Origin: Pseudomonas taiwanensis
GTDB lineage: Bacteria; Pseudomonadota; Gammaproteobacteria; Pseudomonadales; Pseudomonadaceae
Reading direction: 5' to 3'
NCBI RefSeq assembly: GCF_013393345.1
Contig: NZ_QJRF01000040.1
Span: 248,001-312,000 of the forward strand
DNA: 64,000 nt
Position 1 is the stretch's first letter. Every line of letters starts with the position of its first letter. The notes beneath the pieces are model-generated. The model saw only the letters and a program-made list of their open reading frames with translations, was not told where the DNA came from and ran no database searches. Both the position numbers and the translations under genes were made by a program. Positions 38,036 to 46,022 of this stretch are shown here, in pieces.

Positions 38036-39259
38036 TCAGCTTGCGGTCTTCCCCGCTTCTGCTCGTTCCTGCAGCAGCTTCTGGATGATCGCCTCCTGGT
38101 CCTCATAGTCGCCCTCACCGATATGCAGGTGACGGACACGCCCGTTGGCATCGATGAAGTAATGCGCCGGCCAGTACTGGTTGGTGAAGGCATTCCAGAT
38201 TCGGTACTGATTGTCGACGGCCACCGGATGCTTGACGCCCAGGCGATCGATCGCCTCACGCACGTTTTCGATCTTCCGTTCGAAGGGGTATTCGGGCGTG
38301 TGCACACCGATCACCACCAGGCCCTTGTCGGCGTAGCGCGCGGCCCACTGGTTCACGTACGGCAGGCTGTTGCGGCAATTGATGCAGTCGAAGGTCCAGA
38401 AGTCCACCAGCACTACCTTGCCAAGCAGTTGTTCGTTGGTCAGCGGCGGGCCATTGAGCCACTGGGTCGCACCCTGCAGCGACGGCATCGCGCCCAGGTC
38501 TGGCAGTTGTTCGATGCTGTCGGCACGGGCGCTGCCCACCACGCTCTCCAGCATGGCTGGAACACCCTCGATCACCTTACGCTCAAGTTCGGCCGCCAGC
38601 CGGGAAGACCCCACGCCGGACAGCTGGTCAGTGGTGCCCGTGGCAATGCCGACGACCGCCAGCAACGCCACTGCACCGGCGCCGCGACGCAGCCATTCCA
38701 CCGCGCCCAGCGACAGCTTCGCCCGCTGGAACACGCCACGCCCGAGGAAGATCAGCCCGCCCATTGCCACGGCACCGCCGAGCCCATAGCTGAGCAGCAG
38801 CAGGCTGGTGGAGGCACTGGCGCCGTTGAGCATGGCACCGGACAGGATCAATCCCAGAATGGGGCCGGCACAGGGCGCCCAGAGCAGGCCGGCGGCAAAA
38901 CCCATCAGCCAGGCCGAAAGCGTTGGCGGCAGGCTGCGGGCATCACCCTGCAGGCGGTCCCCCAACCACACCCAGGGACGCGACAGCCAGGTGCCAACTC
39001 GCGAAGAAAGCAGGGCCGCCGCCGAGGCGGCCAGCAATACCAGGGCAAGATAGCGTCCCCATTGGCTGGCGTTGATCACCCATTCACTGGAAACCACGGC
39101 GAGGCTGGCGAGCACGGCAAAACCGGAGGCCAGCCCAGCCAGCGTCAGCAATGGCAACCAGGCGGGACCACCGGCACGGGAGAACAACAAGGGCAGGACA
39201 GGCAGTACACAGGGGCTGAACAGGGTCAGCACCCCGCCTAGAAATGCAACGAGCAGCAT
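38036..39259 (-). CDS. DipZ/DsbD-like membrane thiol:disulfide oxidoreductase (CcdA + thioredoxin domains)
   Basis: 407-residue inner-membrane protein. The N-terminal CcdA-like electron-carrying domain (about 1-205) has Cys17 in TLFSPCVLPVLP and Cys130 in LWAPCAGPILG, the pair that shuttles electrons through the membrane. The C-terminal periplasmic thioredoxin-like domain (about 265-395) has the redox motif Cys292-Ile-Asn-Cys295 in VDFWTFDCINCRNSLPYVNQW. It supplies reducing power to periplasmic thiols. ATG 39259 is the family start. It lies 120 bases before ampC and divergent from a two-component system, an arrangement like the Dsb/DsbRS locus of P. aeruginosa; the comparison is from memory. 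Confidence 0.88.
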   Translation of the reverse strand: MLLVAFLGGVLTLFSPCVLPVLPLLFSRAGGPAWLPLLTLAGLASGFAVLASLAVVSSEWVINASQWGRYLALVLLAASAAALLSSRVGTWLSRPWVWLGDRLQGDARSLPPTLSAWLMGFAAGLLWAPCAGPILGLILSGAMLNGASASTSLLLLSYGLGGAVAMGGLIFLGRGVFQRAKLSLGAVEWLRRGAGAVALLAVVGIATGTTDQLSGVGSSRLAAELERKVIEGVPAMLESVVGSARADSIEQLPDLGAMPSLQGATQWLNGPPLTNEQLLGKVVLVDFWTFDCINCRNSLPYVNQWAARYADKGLVVIGVHTPEYPFERKIENVREAIDRLGVKHPVAVDNQYRIWNAFTNQYWPAHYFIDANGRVRHLHIGEGDYEDQEAIIQKLLQERAEAGKTAS

Positions 39260-39495
39260 AGGCACCTCAGTGGCAGATGGGGCCCGGTACGCTCCGGGCG
39301 GGGGCGGACGCAGGGGGCATCCGCTGGGTACCCATTTCATGGCGGGGAGGTATCGCCGATGTGTCCGGTGCCGACCGGGATTGCGCTGGCAGGTATCAGC
39401 AAGGGCGGCGGATACAGTGGAATACAAAGGGTGGCGGGCAAGCGCGGGAATGCCCGATACACTGGGCGTCGAACAGCCACTAACGAGGTTATTCC

Positions 39496-40235
<740 letters not shown>

Positions 40236-40236
<1 letters not shown>

Positions 40237-41543
40237 TGGCCCTGCCCCGCTGGCCAACCACCCTGGCCGCCCGCCTGGCGCTGATCTTCCTCACCGGGCT
40301 GGTACTGGCCTACGGGATGTCCTTCGCCTCGCAGTTCTACGAGCGCTACCAGACCGGGCGCGACGTCATGCTCGGCAACCTCGAACACGACGTGAGCACT
40401 GCCGTGGCGCTGATCGACCGCTTGCCGGCAGAGGAACGTGCCACCTGGTTGTCACTGCTGGAACGGCGCAACTACCGCTATCGGCTCGATGCGGGCACTC
40501 CGGGCGAGCCCATGGACATGACCCAGCCCCACATGGCGGCCAGTTCCATTGCAGAGGCGATCGGCCAGCGATATCCGCTGCGTTTCGAAAACATTCCCGG
40601 CCCCCGGCCGCATTTCCAGGCGCACCTGACATTGAGCGACGGCCGCCCGTTGACGGTGGACGTCACGCCCGGCCCCATTCCGATGGCCCAGTGGCTGCCA
40701 GTGATGCTGATCCTGCAATTGGCGGTACTGCTTTTTTGCACCTGGCTGGCGGTGCGCATGGCGATCCGTCCGCTTACCCGCCTCGCAGAGGCCGTGGACC
40801 ATCTCGACCCGGACACGCCCGGCCCCGAACTCGACGAACGCGGTCCCCAGGAAGTCTCCTACGCGGCCCGCGCCTTCAATGCGCTGCAAGGACGCATCGG
40901 TGCGTACCTGAAAGAGCGCATGCAGTTGCTGGCCGCCATCTCCCACGACCTGCAGACCCCCATCACGCGGATGAAACTGCGTGTGGAGCAGATGGACCCC
41001 TCCCCGGAGCGCGAGAAGCTGTGGAGCGACCTGAACGAAATGCAGCATCTGGTGCGTGAAGGCGTTGCCTACGCCCGCAGCATGGACGGTGCCAGCGAAG
41101 CGCTGTGCCGGGTCGACCTCGATGCCTTCCTCGACAGCCTCGTGTGCGATTACCAGGACAGCGGCCAGGCCGTGACCCTCGCGGGCTCCAGCGGCCTGCT
41201 GCTGGAAACCCGCCCCCATGCTTTCCGCAGGGTGCTCAGCAACCTGATCGACAACGCCCTGAAGTTTGGCGGCAGCGCCGAGGTGGCCGTGCAACGAGAT
41301 GCACAGGGCAAGGTACAGGTGCTGGTGAACGACAACGGACCGGGCATTGCCGAAGAGGACCTGCAGGAGGTCTTCAAGCCGTTCTATCGCGTGGAAAGCT
41401 CGCGCAACCGCACCACCGGCGGCACCGGTCTCGGGCTGGCCATCGCCCAGCAATTGAGCCAGGCACTGGGCGCACGCCTGACTTTGGCCAACCGCGACGG
41501 CGGCGGCCTCTGTGCACGGCTGGAGCTTGGCGCTGCCGATTGA
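40236..41543 (+). CDS. Sensor histidine kinase, two-component partner
   Basis: 435-residue membrane kinase. Transmembrane helix 1 spans about 12-32, followed by a periplasmic sensor domain (about 33-150) and helix 2 (about 153-175). A HAMP linker, the DHp domain with His237 (LLAAISHDLQTPITRMKLRVEQM), and the ATPase domain (N-box NLIDNALKFGG, G1 NDNGPGIAEEDL, G2 TGGTGLGLAIAQQL) follow. The sensor loop has no Cys but has a Met/His cluster (EPMDMTQPHM), which could bind copper, or nothing. The ATG overlaps the regulator stop (TGATG); a GTG three bases earlier is also in frame. Confidence 0.92.
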
Positions 41544-41552
41544 GGTAGCAAC

Positions 41553-41629
41553 GTAGGATGGGTTGAGCCCGCGATACCCATGCTGTTTCTCGGAGCCGAT
41601 GGGTATCGCTTCGCTCAACCACATCCTAC
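41553..41629. repeat. Long imperfect inverted repeat after the kinase gene
   Basis: GTAGGATGGGTTGAGC...GATACCCAT pairs with ATGGGTATC...GCTCAACC-A-CATCCTAC around a short spacer. Starting 10 bases past the kinase stop, it is a small palindromic element that may also act as a transcript end. Confidence 0.75.
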
Positions 41630-41638
41630 GAACTGACC

Positions 41639-41702
41639 GTAGGAGCGAGCTTGCTCGCGAAAAGATCCTGCCCCGGCTGTTCGCGAGCAAGCTCGCTCCT
41701 AC
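41639..41702. repeat. REPIN palindromic repeat
   Basis: Facing GTAGGAGCGAGC / GCTCGCTCCTAC half-sites directly after the inverted repeat at 41553-41629. Confidence 0.85.
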
Positions 41703-41737
41703 ACGATCACCTTCGGCGATGAGACCGCACCGCAACG

Positions 41738-41770
41738 AAAAAAGCCCGCGCGCTCTGGGCACGCGGGCTT
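41738..41770 (-). terminator. Rho-independent terminator of ohr (and of the upstream operon)
   Basis: AAAGCCCGCG / CGCGGGCTT stem with a plus-strand AAAAAA (41738-41743), the U-tract of the minus-strand transcript, 19 bases past the ohr stop. Confidence 0.88.
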
Positions 41771-41788
41771 TGGCCTGGCCGATTTCGA

Positions 41789-42211
41789 TCAGGGAATGTC
41801 GAAGGTCACCTCGATGTTGTCGCGGGTTGCCTTGGAATACGGGCAGAGCTGGTGAGCCATTTCGACCAGACGGGCTTTGTCATCGCTCGCCAGGCCCGGC
41901 AGTTCCACCCGCAGCTTCGCCGCCAGGGCAAAGCCGCCGTCGGCGGTGTTGCCCAGGGCGATGTCGGCGACCACCGCCACATCGTCCGGCAGGCGGATTT
42001 CCAGGCTCTGGCCGGCGCGGCGCAGGGCGCCAATGAAGCAGGCCGACCAGCCGACGCCCAGCAGTTGCTCCGGATTGGTTCCCGGTCGGCCCGAGTTAGG
42101 TGGACTCAGGCGCACGTTCAGCTCGCCGTCGGAGGATTCGCCACGACCATCGCGGCCACCGGTGGTGCGTGTCTGGGCGGTGTAGAGGGTGCTTTGCAGG
42201 ATTGCGGTCAT
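41789..42211 (-). CDS. ohr: Organic hydroperoxide resistance protein (Ohr/OsmC family)
   Basis: 140-residue thiol peroxidase of the Ohr branch. The two active-site cysteines are Cys58 (GVGWSACFIGAL) and Cys123 (AHQLCPYSKATRDN); Arg20 and the Glu in NPEQLL complete the usual network. It reduces organic hydroperoxides using lipoylated partners. ATG 42211 is preferred to the TTG three bases upstream. No ohrR regulator is adjacent. It is the last gene after bufA-bufB-bufC on the same strand, 60 bases behind bufC, with a GC-rich hairpin between them that may or may not separate the transcripts. Confidence 0.93.
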   Translation of the reverse strand: MTAILQSTLYTAQTRTTGGRDGRGESSDGELNVRLSPPNSGRPGTNPEQLLGVGWSACFIGALRRAGQSLEIRLPDDVAVVADIALGNTADGGFALAAKLRVELPGLASDDKARLVEMAHQLCPYSKATRDNIEVTFDIP

Positions 42212-42241
42212 CAATGTGTTTCCTGGCTACAGGGAAGGAAG

Positions 42242-42259
42242 TGCCGGCGGGCGCCGGCA
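42242..42259 (-). terminator. Hairpin between bufC and ohr
   Basis: TGCCGGC (42242-42248) - GGGC - GCCGGCA (42253-42259). On the minus strand it is followed by CTTCCTTCC, a poor U-tract, so partial termination or processing is possible. Confidence 0.4.
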
Positions 42260-42271
42260 TTTGTCTGCGCC

Positions 42272-43018
42272 TCAGATACGGGTGCCGAGCACCACGCCCT
42301 GGGCGCGCAGGTTTTCCAGCAGGGCCAGGCCTTGCGGCAGCAGGTCCTCGCTGTGCACGCCTATGGCTTCGGCCAGGGCGTGGAGATGTTCATGGCCGGA
42401 GCAGTCACGTTCCTGCAGGGACATGAGCAGCGCATGAGCAAGCGGTGCCAGGCGCGAGAAGTGGATGTTCTTGTCGACACCGCGCCGTGCCAGCACCAGG
42501 GTCGGTTGATCGGGCACGTCGTTCGGCAAGAAGTCGGGACCGATCTCGCTCACCGGCCACTGATAGGCCAGCGGCCAGGCCAGGCTGGACAACAGGGGAA
42601 TGCCGTCGAGCAGGTTGCCCTCGGGATCATGGGCCTGTTCCTCGCTGTCGCTGAGGAGCAGCGCAGCTTCCACCCACTCGTAATGGGCCAGTTCCGCCAA
42701 CCAGGCCGGCAGCTCGAGCGTGTCGGCGCCGCCCTCTTCCAGATAGCGGACGAACTCCCCGGAGATTTCAGTGAACAGCGGCGTCTGGCAGCGGTAATCG
42801 GCAAAGAAAGCCTCGATCAGGACCTGCCAGCGCTGCGCACCGAGGCTGGCGCGGATGACCGGGAAGCAGCCCGCAAGCAACGACTCCACATTGCCGAAGA
42901 ACAACCGGCGGTACACCGCCAGGCGGCGCGGTTCGATACCGGGAGGCGGCGCGTTGTTCTGTGGGTCGCGCACATGGCGCGCCATGCTCATCAGCTGTTC
43001 ATGCAGGACTTCATGCAC
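42272..43018 (-). CDS. bufC: DUF2063-family partner protein of the MNIO enzyme (BufC-like)
   Basis: About 248 residues of the DUF2063 family, which works with DUF692/MNIO enzymes as the RiPP recognition and partner subunit. The N-terminal helical domain reads [44 protein letters not shown], a family hallmark, followed by [12 protein letters not shown] and [18 protein letters not shown]. The second half binds the precursor in known pairs. I take the GTG at 43018 as start, overlapping the end of bufB by eight bases; an ATG at 42991 is possible. The overlap implies coupled translation. Confidence 0.85.
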
Positions 43019-43859
43019 GGCGCACCTCCGGCCACAGCATGGCTGCCTGCTGGCGCGCGCGAATCTGTTCGACCTCACCCAGCAGCTCCGTCAGCGGCGG
43101 GAAGTTGAAATCGCGTTCCAGCAGCGTCGGTAGCGCACCGAAGCGCTGGTAGGCCTGTTCCAGTAGCGACCAGACGTCGCCCTTCACCGTGGCTCCATGG
43201 GTGTCGATCTTCAGGTCCGGCGCTTCGTCGTAGTGACCCGCCACGTGCAGGTAGACGACCCGCTCCGCCGGCAGAGCAGCCATGTACTCGCTGGCGTCGT
43301 AGCCGTGGTTGATCGAGTTGACGTAGAGGTTGTTGACGTCCAACAGCAAGTCGCAGTCGGCCTCCTCCAGCACCGCACGCAGGAAATCGATCTCCTGCAG
43401 GGCCTGGTAGGGCGCGGCGTAGTAGGAAATGTTCTCCACGGCGATGCGTCGTTCCAGGGCGTCCTGGGTCTGGCGGATGCGCGCGGCGACATGGCGTACC
43501 GACTCGTCGGTAAAAGGCAGCGGCAGCAGGTCGTAGAGCTGGCCATCGTCCGAGCAGTAACTCAGGTGCTCACTGAAGAACGCGACCTTGTGTCCGTCGA
43601 GGAACTCGCGGATGCGCCGCAGCAGCTCACGATCCAGTGGTGCCGGGCCGCCGAGGGATAGCGAGAGGCCATGGCAAGCCAGCGGGAAGCGATCGGACAG
43701 GCGCGCCAGGGCGTCTCCGTGGTGTCCACCGACATTGATCCAGTTGTCCGGGGTGCACTCGAGGAAATCCACGGCACCGGCATCCATCGCCAGTAGCTCG
43801 GGCAGCAAGGCACGGCGCAAGCCAAGGCCGGCACCCTGGGGGAAGGCAGCAGCGTTCAT
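43011..43859 (-). CDS. bufB: MNIO (DUF692) multinuclear iron oxidative enzyme, BufB-like
   Basis: 282-residue TIM-barrel enzyme of the DUF692/UPF0276 family, now known as multinuclear non-haem iron-dependent oxidases that modify Cys in precursor peptides. The conserved metal-binding stretches are all present: FLECTPDNW (Glu34), [11 protein letters not shown] (His63), FFSEHLSY (Glu97, His98), AVENISYY (Glu142), [18 protein letters not shown] (Asp174, Asn176), YLHVAGH (His205, His209), DTHG (Asp219, His221) and LLERDFN (Glu248). It follows the EGKCG precursor gene and overlaps bufC, so its substrate is most likely that precursor. Bufferin-type products contain oxidised Cys heterocycles and bind copper. 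Confidence 0.92.
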
Positions 43860-43883
43860 GGGTGTTCTCCCGAAGGTGAGGAA

Positions 43884-43910
43884 CCTCCCCGGCGGAAGGC
43901 ACCGGGGAGG
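43884..43910 (-). terminator. Attenuator-like hairpin between precursor and enzyme genes
   Basis: A perfect 9-bp stem CCTCCCCGG (43884-43892) / CCGGGGAGG (43902-43910) lies in the 69-base gap between bufA and bufB. On the minus strand it is followed by TTCCTC. It could stop part of the transcription or protect the short precursor mRNA, giving more precursor than enzyme. Confidence 0.55.
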
Positions 43911-43928
43911 TGGATCAAGATGCGAGGA

Positions 43929-44447
43929 TCAGTTCTTGGCCTGGCTCATCTTGGAAAACAGCTCGGTGGGGACTTTCTTGCCGTTGGACAGGTACTGGTT
44001 GCTGCGGAACTTGTAGACCTCGCCCTCGGACAGGAAACCGTCCTTGTTGGTGTCCATCGCAATGAACTCCGCTTCGCCCTTCGGTGCCACGGTCAGGAGT
44101 TCCTTGCGGGATACCAGGCCGTCGTCATCGGTATCGGTGCGCGCGAAGGAGGCATCGCCGCACTTGCCTTCGCCACATTTGCCTTCGGCCGCCTTGGTGT
44201 TGCTTGCTTCGGCGGCACCGCACTTGCCTTCACCACACTTTCCTTCGGCGGCCTTGGAACCGCTGGCTTCCGCCGCACCACATTTGCCTTCGCCACACTT
44301 GCCTTCAGCGGCCTTGTCGGCAGCGGCGAGCATGTAGCCCTGGGGCAGAGCCTCAACGGCGAAGGCCGAGGTCATGTGCATGCCGCCGGCCAGAGCGACA
44401 GCGATCAGGCCAATGCGGGTCTTGTTCGAGAACTGGGGGCGGGACAT
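43929..44447 (-). CDS. bufA: Bufferin-type RiPP precursor with six EGKCG motifs and two EF-hands
   Basis: 172-residue exported precursor. The signal peptide is about residues 1-30 (ending TSAFA). Residues 45-104 are three 20-residue repeats, each holding EGKCGEGKCG, so there are six Cys (51, 56, 71, 76, 91, 96) in the motif recognised by MNIO enzymes. Two canonical EF-hand loops follow: Asp105-Glu116 (DTDDDGLVSRKE) and Asp132-Glu143 (DTNKDGFLSEGE). GGAG precedes ATG 44447. Related EGKCG proteins (bufferins, HvfA) are modified at Cys and bind copper in the periplasm. The joined EF-hand pair suggests added Ca2+ binding or a scaffold role. No other Cys is present in the protein. Confidence 0.9.
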   Translation of the reverse strand: MSRPQFSNKTRIGLIAVALAGGMHMTSAFAVEALPQGYMLAAADKAAEGKCGEGKCGAAEASGSKAAEGKCGEGKCGAAEASNTKAAEGKCGEGKCGDASFARTDTDDDGLVSRKELLTVAPKGEAEFIAMDTNKDGFLSEGEVYKFRSNQYLSNGKKVPTELFSKMSQAKN

Positions 44448-44792
44448 GGCGTTTCTCCGGATACGTTGCGCGACCAAGGCGCGCTGGGCTTGCCACAAGG
44501 GCTATTGGGACCCTGGAGCGAGGCGCCTGGGCTGGCCTCGTTCGGGTGTGGCCATTTCGCCTCAGCCGTGTATCCGTGACGTATCTGGAGGGAAAAGCAT
44601 TTGTAAGCGACTCGATGAAGATCGGGGCCTGGATACATTGGGATACGTCCTGCACCTACCCGCGCGTCAACGGGGATTTCACGGCACCCGTTGCAGGTCA
44701 TTCCAGCCCTTGCCCGAGCATTCGCCCTGACCTATTGACATTAAAGTTAACTTTAAACTTAGGATTCTGGCTCCGCAGAAGAGGAGCTACCG
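44448..44792. other. Divergent promoter region of bufA and the OYE gene
   Basis: This 345-base gap holds the MerR-type OYE promoter near its right end (44735-44765) and four copies of GGATAC/GTATCC (44459-44464, 44570-44575, 44631-44636, 44641-44646) on the bufA side. The repeated hexamer may be a binding site for the bufA regulator. No small gene is credible here. Confidence 0.5.
44735..44765 (+). promoter_or_regulatory. MerR-family-type promoter with palindromic 19-base spacer
   Basis: TTGACA (44735-44740) and TAGGAT (44760-44765) are separated by 19 bases, longer than the sigma-70 optimum. The spacer contains the perfect palindrome TTAAAGTTAACTTTAA (44741-44756). This is the layout of MerR-family activated promoters (SoxR, NmlR/AdhR type), 28 bases before the OYE start. 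Confidence 0.7.
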
Positions 44793-46022
44793 ATGAGCCT
44801 GTTCGAACCACTTGCACTGCCCAATGGCGCCCGGATACCCAACCGCCTGGCCAAGGCGGCCATGGAAGAAAACATGGCCGACGATAACCATGCGCCGTCC
44901 GCAGAGCTGCTGCGCCTCTACCAGCATTGGGCCGATGGTGGTGCCGGCCTGATCATCACCGGCAATGTGATGGTGGATGGCCGCGCCATGACCGGCCCCG
45001 GTGGCGTGGTGCTGGAAACGGACAGCCACCTCGAGCGCTTCCGGTGCTGGGCTGAGGTCGCCCGCTCGCGTGGTGCCCAGGTCTGGATGCAGATCAACCA
45101 TCCGGGTCGACAGACACCGGCCGCCCTGGGCCAGCCGACCCTGGCACCCTCCGCCGTGCCGCTGGACCTGGGCAAGTTCTCCAACCAGTTCCGTGTGCCC
45201 CGCGAAATGTCCGAAGCGGATATCAAGGACGTGCGCAGTCGCTTCGTCACTGCCGCGCAACTGGCCGAACGCAGCGGATTCAACGGCGTACAGATTCACG
45301 CCGCGCATGGCTACCTGCTGAGCCAGTTCCTCTCGCCGATCAGCAACAAGCGCCAGGATCGCTGGGGCGGTTCCATCGAGAATCGCGCACGCCTGCTCAT
45401 CGACATCGTCCAGGGCGTACGTGACGCGGTGTCGCCGGGGTTCGTGGTGTCGGTGAAACTGAACTCGGCGGACTTCCAGCGCGGCGGCTTCAGCCCGGAG
45501 GATGCGCGCAGTGTGGTCGCCATGCTCAACGAGCATCGGGTGGACCTGGTCGAGCTATCCGGTGGCAGCTATGAAGCCCCGGCCATGCAAGGCCAGGCTC
45601 GCGATGGCCGCACCCTCGCCCGCGAGGCCTACTTCCTCGAATTCGCTGAAAGCATCGCAGCCATTGCGCGGATGCCTTTGATGGTCACCGGCGGTATCCG
45701 GCGGCGCGCCGTGGCGGAGAAAGTCATCCAGAGCGGGATCGCCCTGGCCGGAATGGCCACGGCGCTGTCCATCAATCCGAATCTGCCGCGGGAGTGGTCG
45801 AACGGTGGCGACAGCGCCCCTGCCCTGCGCCCCATCACCTGGAAGAACAAGACCCTCGGCGCCATGGCCAACATGGCGGTGGTGAAGTACCAGTTGCAAC
45901 GGTTGAGCAAGGGGCGCGCTACGCGACCGAATGTTTCGCCGCTGCTCGCCCTGCTGGGGCAGCAGGTTTCGACCTCGACCCGGACGCGGCGCTACCGCCG
46001 CTGGATCGCCGGGCGGAACTGA
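44793..46022 (+). CDS. NADH:flavin oxidoreductase, Old Yellow Enzyme family
   Basis: 409-residue FMN enzyme of the OYE superfamily, in the longer NADH:flavin oxidoreductase group. Visible features are LFEPLALPNGARIPNRLAKAAMEENMA (flavin-domain start), QINHPGRQTP, and the substrate/FMN segment GVQIHAAHGYLLSQFLSP with the paired His region of the active site. The family block NKRQDRWGGSIENRARLL, VKLNSADF, and GGIRRRAVAEKVI with the phosphate-binding loop follow. It reduces activated C=C bonds or nitro/quinone substrates. GAGGAG precedes ATG 44793. The MerR-type promoter suggests induction by electrophilic, aldehyde or redox stress; no merR gene is adjacent. Confidence 0.92.
   Translation: MSLFEPLALPNGARIPNRLAKAAMEENMADDNHAPSAELLRLYQHWADGGAGLIITGNVMVDGRAMTGPGGVVLETDSHLERFRCWAEVARSRGAQVWMQINHPGRQTPAALGQPTLAPSAVPLDLGKFSNQFRVPREMSEADIKDVRSRFVTAAQLAERSGFNGVQIHAAHGYLLSQFLSPISNKRQDRWGGSIENRARLLIDIVQGVRDAVSPGFVVSVKLNSADFQRGGFSPEDARSVVAMLNEHRVDLVELSGGSYEAPAMQGQARDGRTLAREAYFLEFAESIAAIARMPLMVTGGIRRRAVAEKVIQSGIALAGMATALSINPNLPREWSNGGDSAPALRPITWKNKTLGAMANMAVVKYQLQRLSKGRATRPNVSPLLALLGQQVSTSTRTRRYRRWIAGRN

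Follow-up and report, generated by a model that had tools for sequence, protein, structure and literature searches.

We consider it probable that the efhP-type operon in a 64,000-nucleotide stretch of Pseudomonas taiwanensis DNA (contig NZ_QJRF01000040.1, positions 248,001 to 312,000; hereafter the window) encodes a modified metal-binding peptide, in which HvfB- and HvfC-type proteins would build six 5-thiooxazoles on the EGKCG motifs of an EF-hand precursor, the product likely binds copper, and a BfmRS-like two-component system next to the operon is predicted to activate its transcription. Open reading frame (ORF) calls placed the precursor, an HvfB-type MNIO, an HvfC-type partner and ohr in this order on the minus strand. 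A first-pass annotation of the same DNA had reported an EGKCG precursor followed by a DUF692/MNIO enzyme and an overlapping DUF2063 partner, and had proposed a profile search. All of these genes were found where it had put them, and the search, when run, returned PF05114, PF09836 and NF050137 matches in the operon. The operon features are as follows (bit scores are given against the model cut-off).

43929..44447, minus strand: efhP-type precursor, 172 amino acids (NF050137, 74 against 19.5 bits; PF13202, 29.4 against 25.9)
44358..44447, minus strand: signal-peptide-like stretch, residues 1-30, ending SAFA/VE, read by eye
44157..44306, minus strand: EGKCG block, residues 48-97, predicted MNIO substrate, three 20-residue units with two EGKCG per unit
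44100..44135, minus strand: EF-hand loop 1, DTDDDGLVSRKE, from profile match and structure model
44019..44054, minus strand: EF-hand loop 2, DTNKDGFLSEGE, from profile match and structure model
43011..43859, minus strand: HvfB-type MNIO (NF003818, 424.9 against 360 bits; PF05114, 343 bits; PDB 3bww, E 8e-81)
42272..43018, minus strand: HvfC-type partner, DUF2063 plus NGO1945_C, GTG start at 43018 (NF050145, 279.3 against 142 bits; PF09836, PF22106)
41789..42211, minus strand: ohr, organic hydroperoxide reductase family, tail gene (TIGR03561, 145 against 88.85 bits)

The precursor joins a signal-like N-terminus to six EGKCG motifs and two EF-hand loops (PF13202), a fusion that the first-pass annotation had read correctly, as it had the ohr gene in tail position. 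The 60-bp units of the EGKCG block were scored as a tandem repeat of 2.7 copies (score 220). Between the six copies of EGKCG the only differences were at synonymous positions, a pattern that agrees with selection acting on the motif rather than with a run that arose by chance. EF-hand profile matches covered residues 101-119 and 128-143, and both loops were canonical on reading of the sequence. A structure model built from 14 sequences had a mean predicted local distance difference test (pLDDT) score of 57, with residues 1-95 modelled as disordered (below 50 save residue 91) and the EF-hand pair better modelled (block means of 72-91 over residues 101-170). A structure search with the precursor returned weak EF-hand matches only (8fns and lanmodulin 6mi5, E about 1e-3); a lanthanide-binding reading was dropped, since the loops lack the proline of lanmodulin. 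The MNIO keeps DVNN (residues 174-177) and DTHG (residues 219-222), the hvfC start overlaps its stop by 8 bp, and 60 bp separate hvfC from ohr. No leader riboswitch was matched in Rfam across 39000-46000.

By its sequence, the window locus is an efhP operon and no new architecture, the EfhP family being already known. The earlier description of the precursor as unusual is not supported: it has 785 homologous proteins at E<=1e-3, and in each of the best 120 of them pattern matching picked out two or more EGKCG-type motifs and one or more EF-hand loops, with an EGKCG-type count that ranged from 2 to 8 among these 120. According to the available text of the published accounts, EfhP (PA4107) of P. 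aeruginosa was suggested to form an operon with PA4106 (DUF692) and PA4105 (DUF2063) (PMC4053335), and its four EGKCG motifs in PAO1 were noted in 2024 (PMC11559002). A SignalP result was published for the PAO1 protein, which binds Ca2+ with a dissociation constant of 13.7 μM and a structural change (PMC9132961). For that work the PAO1 gene was expressed in E. coli without the signal-peptide part (PMC9132961), so the purified EfhP was presumably unmodified. Its authors also suggested Fe sensing and a dual Ca/Fe sensor (PMC11559002). The PAO1 locus, as described, resembles the window in having EGKCG motifs and two EF-hands, then MNIO and DUF2063 genes, with bfmRS (PA4101-4102) nearby. It differs in its four EGKCG motifs against the six in three 20-residue units here, in the ohr tail found here, and in PA4103-4104, which by locus tags lie between operon and bfmRS.

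Buf_EGKC/EF-hand chimaeras, with EfhP named among them, were described in 2025 (PMC12452194). They share with the window precursor an EGKCG domain, two EF-hand_5 domains, linkage to an MNIO and an EGKCG part modelled as unstructured (PMC12452194). The text available to us calls them devoid of 17-residue repeats and makes no mention of ohr or BfmR (PMC12452194), whereas the window precursor has a triplicated 20-residue unit and no 17-residue repeat. Multi-unit EGKCG members were common among relatives, and the window protein was 98% identical where aligned to the 152-residue P0005, the two being one repeat unit apart. Judged from these sequences, the repeat-free description looks too narrow.

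The HvfB and HvfC models matched here are those of HvfABC, the oxazolin system of H. influenzae, and of captophorins such as fontiphorin. The HvfA core, in the accessible part of its description, consists of three AEGKCGEGKCG motifs carrying six 5-thiooxazoles, an equal number of EGKCG cysteines to that of the window precursor; HvfBC and FonBC convert EGKCG to 5-thiooxazole, and such products bind copper (PMC13419390). HvfA differs in being described without EF-hands and in having the DoxX-like HvfX in its operon, and the window precursor reached 57 of the 95 bits set for the HvfA equivalog model NF050188. It is predicted to work like HvfA, yet it is not filed as HvfA itself. The first-pass assignment to the bufferin type thus gave way to the HvfABC type. 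Bufferin clusters (DUF2282 precursor, BufB, BufC, DoxX) also combine an MNIO and a DUF2063-type partner with an exported cysteine-rich precursor, but the window precursor had no DUF2282 match (PF10048) and its MNIO scored 273.2 bits against the 310 of the BufB equivalog NF050167, which ruled out bufferin proper. The periplasmic copper buffering proposed earlier for the operon is plausible, by family membership only.

Next to the operon lies a regulatory locus, with which two box-like sites are associated.

39496..40236, plus strand: BfmR-like response regulator (PF00072 and PF00486; Asp at residue 55)
40233..41543, plus strand: BfmS-like sensor kinase (PF02518 above cut-off; PF00512 and PF00672 below theirs)
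38036..39259, minus strand: DsbD/TlpA-like thiol oxidoreductase (PF08534, PF00578), divergent from bfmR
44632..44647, plus strand: BfmR-box-like direct repeat, GATACATTGGGATACG, 185-200 bp upstream of efhP
39411..39426, plus strand: BfmR-box-like site, GATACAGTGGAATACA, upstream of bfmR
44569..44585, minus strand: second conserved element GATACG-N5-GATACA, nearer the start, from a leader alignment of 20 sequences

Both neighbours named by the first-pass annotation, the two-component system and the thiol oxidoreductase, were present, and a DsbD/TlpA-like gene often adjoins bfmR in relatives. We call the two-component system BfmRS-like on the strength of synteny, Asp55 and the boxes. Its position beside the operon matches the nearness of bfmRS (PA4101-4102) to the efhP operon (PA4107-4105) in PAO1 (PMC8025907, PMC4148453), and Asp at position 55 is likewise published for BfmR (PMC4148453). 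BfmRS homologues bear generic names, and solved structures matched were CpxA/EnvZ-type kinases and BaeR/RegX3-type regulators. In PAO1, as far as the accessible reports go, the efhP promoter was among the top three BfmR peaks in chromatin immunoprecipitation sequencing, efhP was the most BfmR-activated gene (printed as '11, 268-fold') (PMC8025907), and an electrophoretic mobility shift assay showed BfmR on the PA4107 promoter (PMC4148453).

The box was searched as the direct repeat GATACA-N4-GATACA, read out of the published motif TACAA-N3-GATACA. With at most one mismatch it occurred only twice in the window, upstream of efhP (44632) and of bfmR (39411). Among 71 EF-hand loci of the family sample, from which the window itself and the EF-hand-less loci L078 and L097-L099 were left out, 65 had such a box in the 450 bp upstream, with a single orientation throughout. 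It was conserved even at efhP loci without a linked MNIO, and boxes recurred upstream of bfmR in relatives, often paired. None of 3800 mononucleotide-shuffled upstream regions contained it, while 92 of 1500 random windows did, a control that includes true sites and hence gives no clean null.

Precursor and regulator also occurred together across genomes. Among 298 Pseudomonadaceae genomes, in which the top candidates per genome were scored (11 for the precursor, 9 for BfmR) and a BfmR orthologue was called at a best E below 1e-120, the EF-hand precursor was found in 67 and the BfmR orthologue in 88. Both were present in 66 genomes, BfmR only in 22, the precursor only in one and neither in 209, counts uncorrected for relatedness; the orthologue thus occurred in 66 of the 67 efhP genomes against 22 of the 231 others. 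Four same-genus genomes without efhP likewise lacked it. The sole efhP genome without a BfmR orthologue, G010, carried an internal deletion in its MNIO (residues 62-235 missing) and a precursor with one EGKCG pair replaced by EGKRG. Its locus can be viewed as a natural near-knockout, in which the box upstream of efhP persists.

An MNIO gene lay directly downstream of efhP in 46 of the 71 loci (44 intact, two fragments). The remaining 25 were scored as unlinked, L053 among them despite an MNIO 2.4 kb upstream, and in 14 of these the precursor had just two EGKCG motifs. An MNIO-HvfC pair sat beside bfmRS, with no EGKCG-repeat precursor there, in 14 of 20 unlinked-efhP genomes, a count open to selection bias: eight of the 20 hold two BfmR homologues of which one was fetched per genome, and G205, G225, G237 and G260 were represented by the copy already seen near an MNIO. 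In the subset with a single BfmR copy, the arrangement was found in 8 of 12. Genomes with bfmRS and no efhP had an MNIO beside bfmRS in 0 of 20 cases (of 22 such genomes; G295 and G296 were left out). At L214 and L232 a contig boundary falls close to bfmRS. Beside the 14 bfmRS-linked MNIO genes we found no ORF with at least two EGKCG-type motifs, and the small cysteine-bearing ORFs upstream of them offered no candidate common to the loci. Most simply, the bfmRS-linked MNIO would act on EfhP encoded at a distance, with the box as the link. That unlinked precursors are dead relics is not favoured, since 23 of the 25 keep the box (those without being L084 and L024, a paralogue in the source genome) and a bfmRS-linked MNIO is kept in the 14 genomes just mentioned.

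In the proposed mechanism, BfmS would activate BfmR, which would bind the boxes upstream of efhP and bfmR as published for PAO1. HvfB and HvfC would then modify the EGKCG block in the cytoplasm, with the signal-like N-terminus as leader, by analogy with the characterised HvfABC system. After export to the periplasm the modified product would hold Cu(I), while its EF-hands, with Ca2+ bound, might serve to tune or localise the product. Ohr, on the same predicted transcript, would clear organic hydroperoxides made from lipids by redox-active copper. We infer that thiooxazoles, copper binding, Ca2+ coupling and BfmR control hold together in the window operon.

Several observations weigh against this proposal. 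Published EfhP phenotypes, in the text at hand, concern Ca2+, iron uptake and virulence and not copper (PMC11559002), and copper buffering may not be the operon's main job, because the source genome already has a bufferin cluster. The whole-genome box count was 4 against 3 for the reversed pattern, which is not above chance, and TACAA-N3-GATACA with at most two mismatches gave 4 hits in the window against 3.36 expected, so the case for the box rests on position and conservation. No box with at most one mismatch was found at 6 of the 71 loci (L024, L034, L084 and L094-L096), four of which are linked (L034 and L094-L096); the upstream sequence of L084 ends at 117 bp. A box lay within 250 bp of six of the 14 bfmRS-linked MNIO genes, and the other eight had none. 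Small unannotated precursors may exist upstream of these MNIO genes, as L197 has two ORFs of 58-60 amino acids that contain 4-5 Cys, and at L213 there is a signal-like ORF containing a single Cys. In addition, ohr is missing from 18 of the 46 linked loci.

The operon could instead encode a simple copper buffer of the oxazolin or bufferin kind, its EF-hands just stabilising or anchoring the product with no regulatory part for Ca2+. This is unlikely in our view, although the described HvfA has the same core without EF-hands (PMC13419390) and EF-hand-less EGKCG precursors adjoin MNIO and HvfC genes at L078, L097, L098 and L099. The EF-hands look like the constant part, because the EGKCG count shrinks to two in the 14 unlinked loci while the EF-hand pair stays, and the structural change of EfhP on Ca2+ binding (PMC9132961, in its available text) also speaks against a passive pair.

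A sensor of Ca2+, perhaps also of Fe, with unmodified cysteines and an MNIO that is incidental or acts elsewhere, is decidedly improbable. It would accommodate the Ca2+ binding of signal-peptide-less PAO1 EfhP from E. coli, the dual Ca/Fe sensing its authors proposed (PMC9132961, PMC11559002, as available) and the 25 loci without an MNIO directly downstream. It fits poorly with the 46 loci where the MNIO follows efhP, with the contrast between 14 of 20 unlinked-efhP genomes and 0 of 20 genomes without efhP for a bfmRS-linked MNIO, and with EGKCG amino acids invariant over six copies.

A peroxide-defence peptide, with thiooxazoles and Ohr directed chiefly at organic hydroperoxides or other oxidants and metal binding secondary, is very improbable: ohr follows hvfC in 28 of the 46 linked loci and in 11 of 14 same-genus loci, and recurs at two Lysobacter loci (L144 and L151), but its absence from the other 18 and the three further Ohr-family genes over cut-off in the source genome argue against such a role. 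In favour of this role, ohr lies 104 bp after efhP at L063 (genome G255), a locus from which MNIO and HvfC are absent.

No DoxX gene was found within the window operon, as the first-pass annotation had said, but an orthologue lies about 158 kb off on the same contig, which ruled out loss of DoxX from the genome. It is 80% identical to the operon-side DoxX of relatives, where 10 of 14 same-genus loci have doxX flanked by bfmS and the operon. The source-genome doxX has a two-mismatch box at -113, and boxes with 0-3 mismatches occurred upstream of doxX in 11 of 13 sister loci, nine of them at -115 to -122, a count made with no chance control. A repetitive extragenic palindrome-like inverted repeat occupies 41639-41704, in the gap that holds doxX in sister species; its 23-base arm occurs five times per strand in the window. 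The putative ferric-reductase-like neighbour (fragment in L041) had no Pfam match, its label resting on the PA4103 annotation and position.

Elsewhere in the 6.7-Mb source genome, the bufferin cluster (L001, on G000:C44) comprises DUF2282 (with a PF10048 match), BufB, BufC and DoxX, and adjoins genes that by eye resemble SCO and multicopper oxidase. The second EfhP-like protein (L024, on C42) has 148 amino acids and an EGQCG variant; the 12 kb covered there contained no MNIO, and upstream of the gene no box of at most two mismatches was found. Upstream of the window operon, a palindrome at 44735-44765 is framed by hexamers that resemble -35 and -10 elements, spaced by 19 bp, and precedes a divergent flavin oxidoreductase gene (44793-46022); we take it to be of the type used by MerR-family regulators. 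Among relatives, L094, L095 and L096 have another layout in which EGKCG motifs flank the EF-hand pair on either side, with MNIO linked and the box weak or absent. L046 (genome G261) has EGKFG twice, two block cysteines being replaced by phenylalanine, with an MNIO homologue still downstream. L183, on a contig filed as Bacillus subtilis and probably mislabelled or contaminated, combines an EGKCG precursor with MNIO (65%), HvfC and DoxX homologues.

Work on EfhP has since 2014 treated it as a calcium-binding protein, while BfmRS was studied as a regulator of biofilm and virulence and MNIO peptides as copper binders. A literature search, which reached few of the subscription journals, found no report joining BfmR with MNIO or with DUF692. 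What is new here is the conservation of the BfmR-like box, the co-occurrence of efhP and BfmR, the split MNIO beside bfmRS, the recurrent ohr tail and the triplicated unit. A broader idea, which we offer tentatively and with more doubt than belief, is that BfmRS might at root be a metal-peptide switch, whose oldest and strongest output would be EfhP as a Ca2+-tuned copper-binding ribosomally synthesised and post-translationally modified peptide, with a maturase possibly supplied in trans and linked through the box; on this view, a thiooxazole metallophore would underlie the Ca2+, iron and virulence phenotypes of EfhP. If so, joining BfmR to MNIO would account for the place of efhP as the gene that BfmR activates most in PAO1, would make sense of some of the 'orphan' precursors that have no maturase next to them, and would tie BfmR to metal control.

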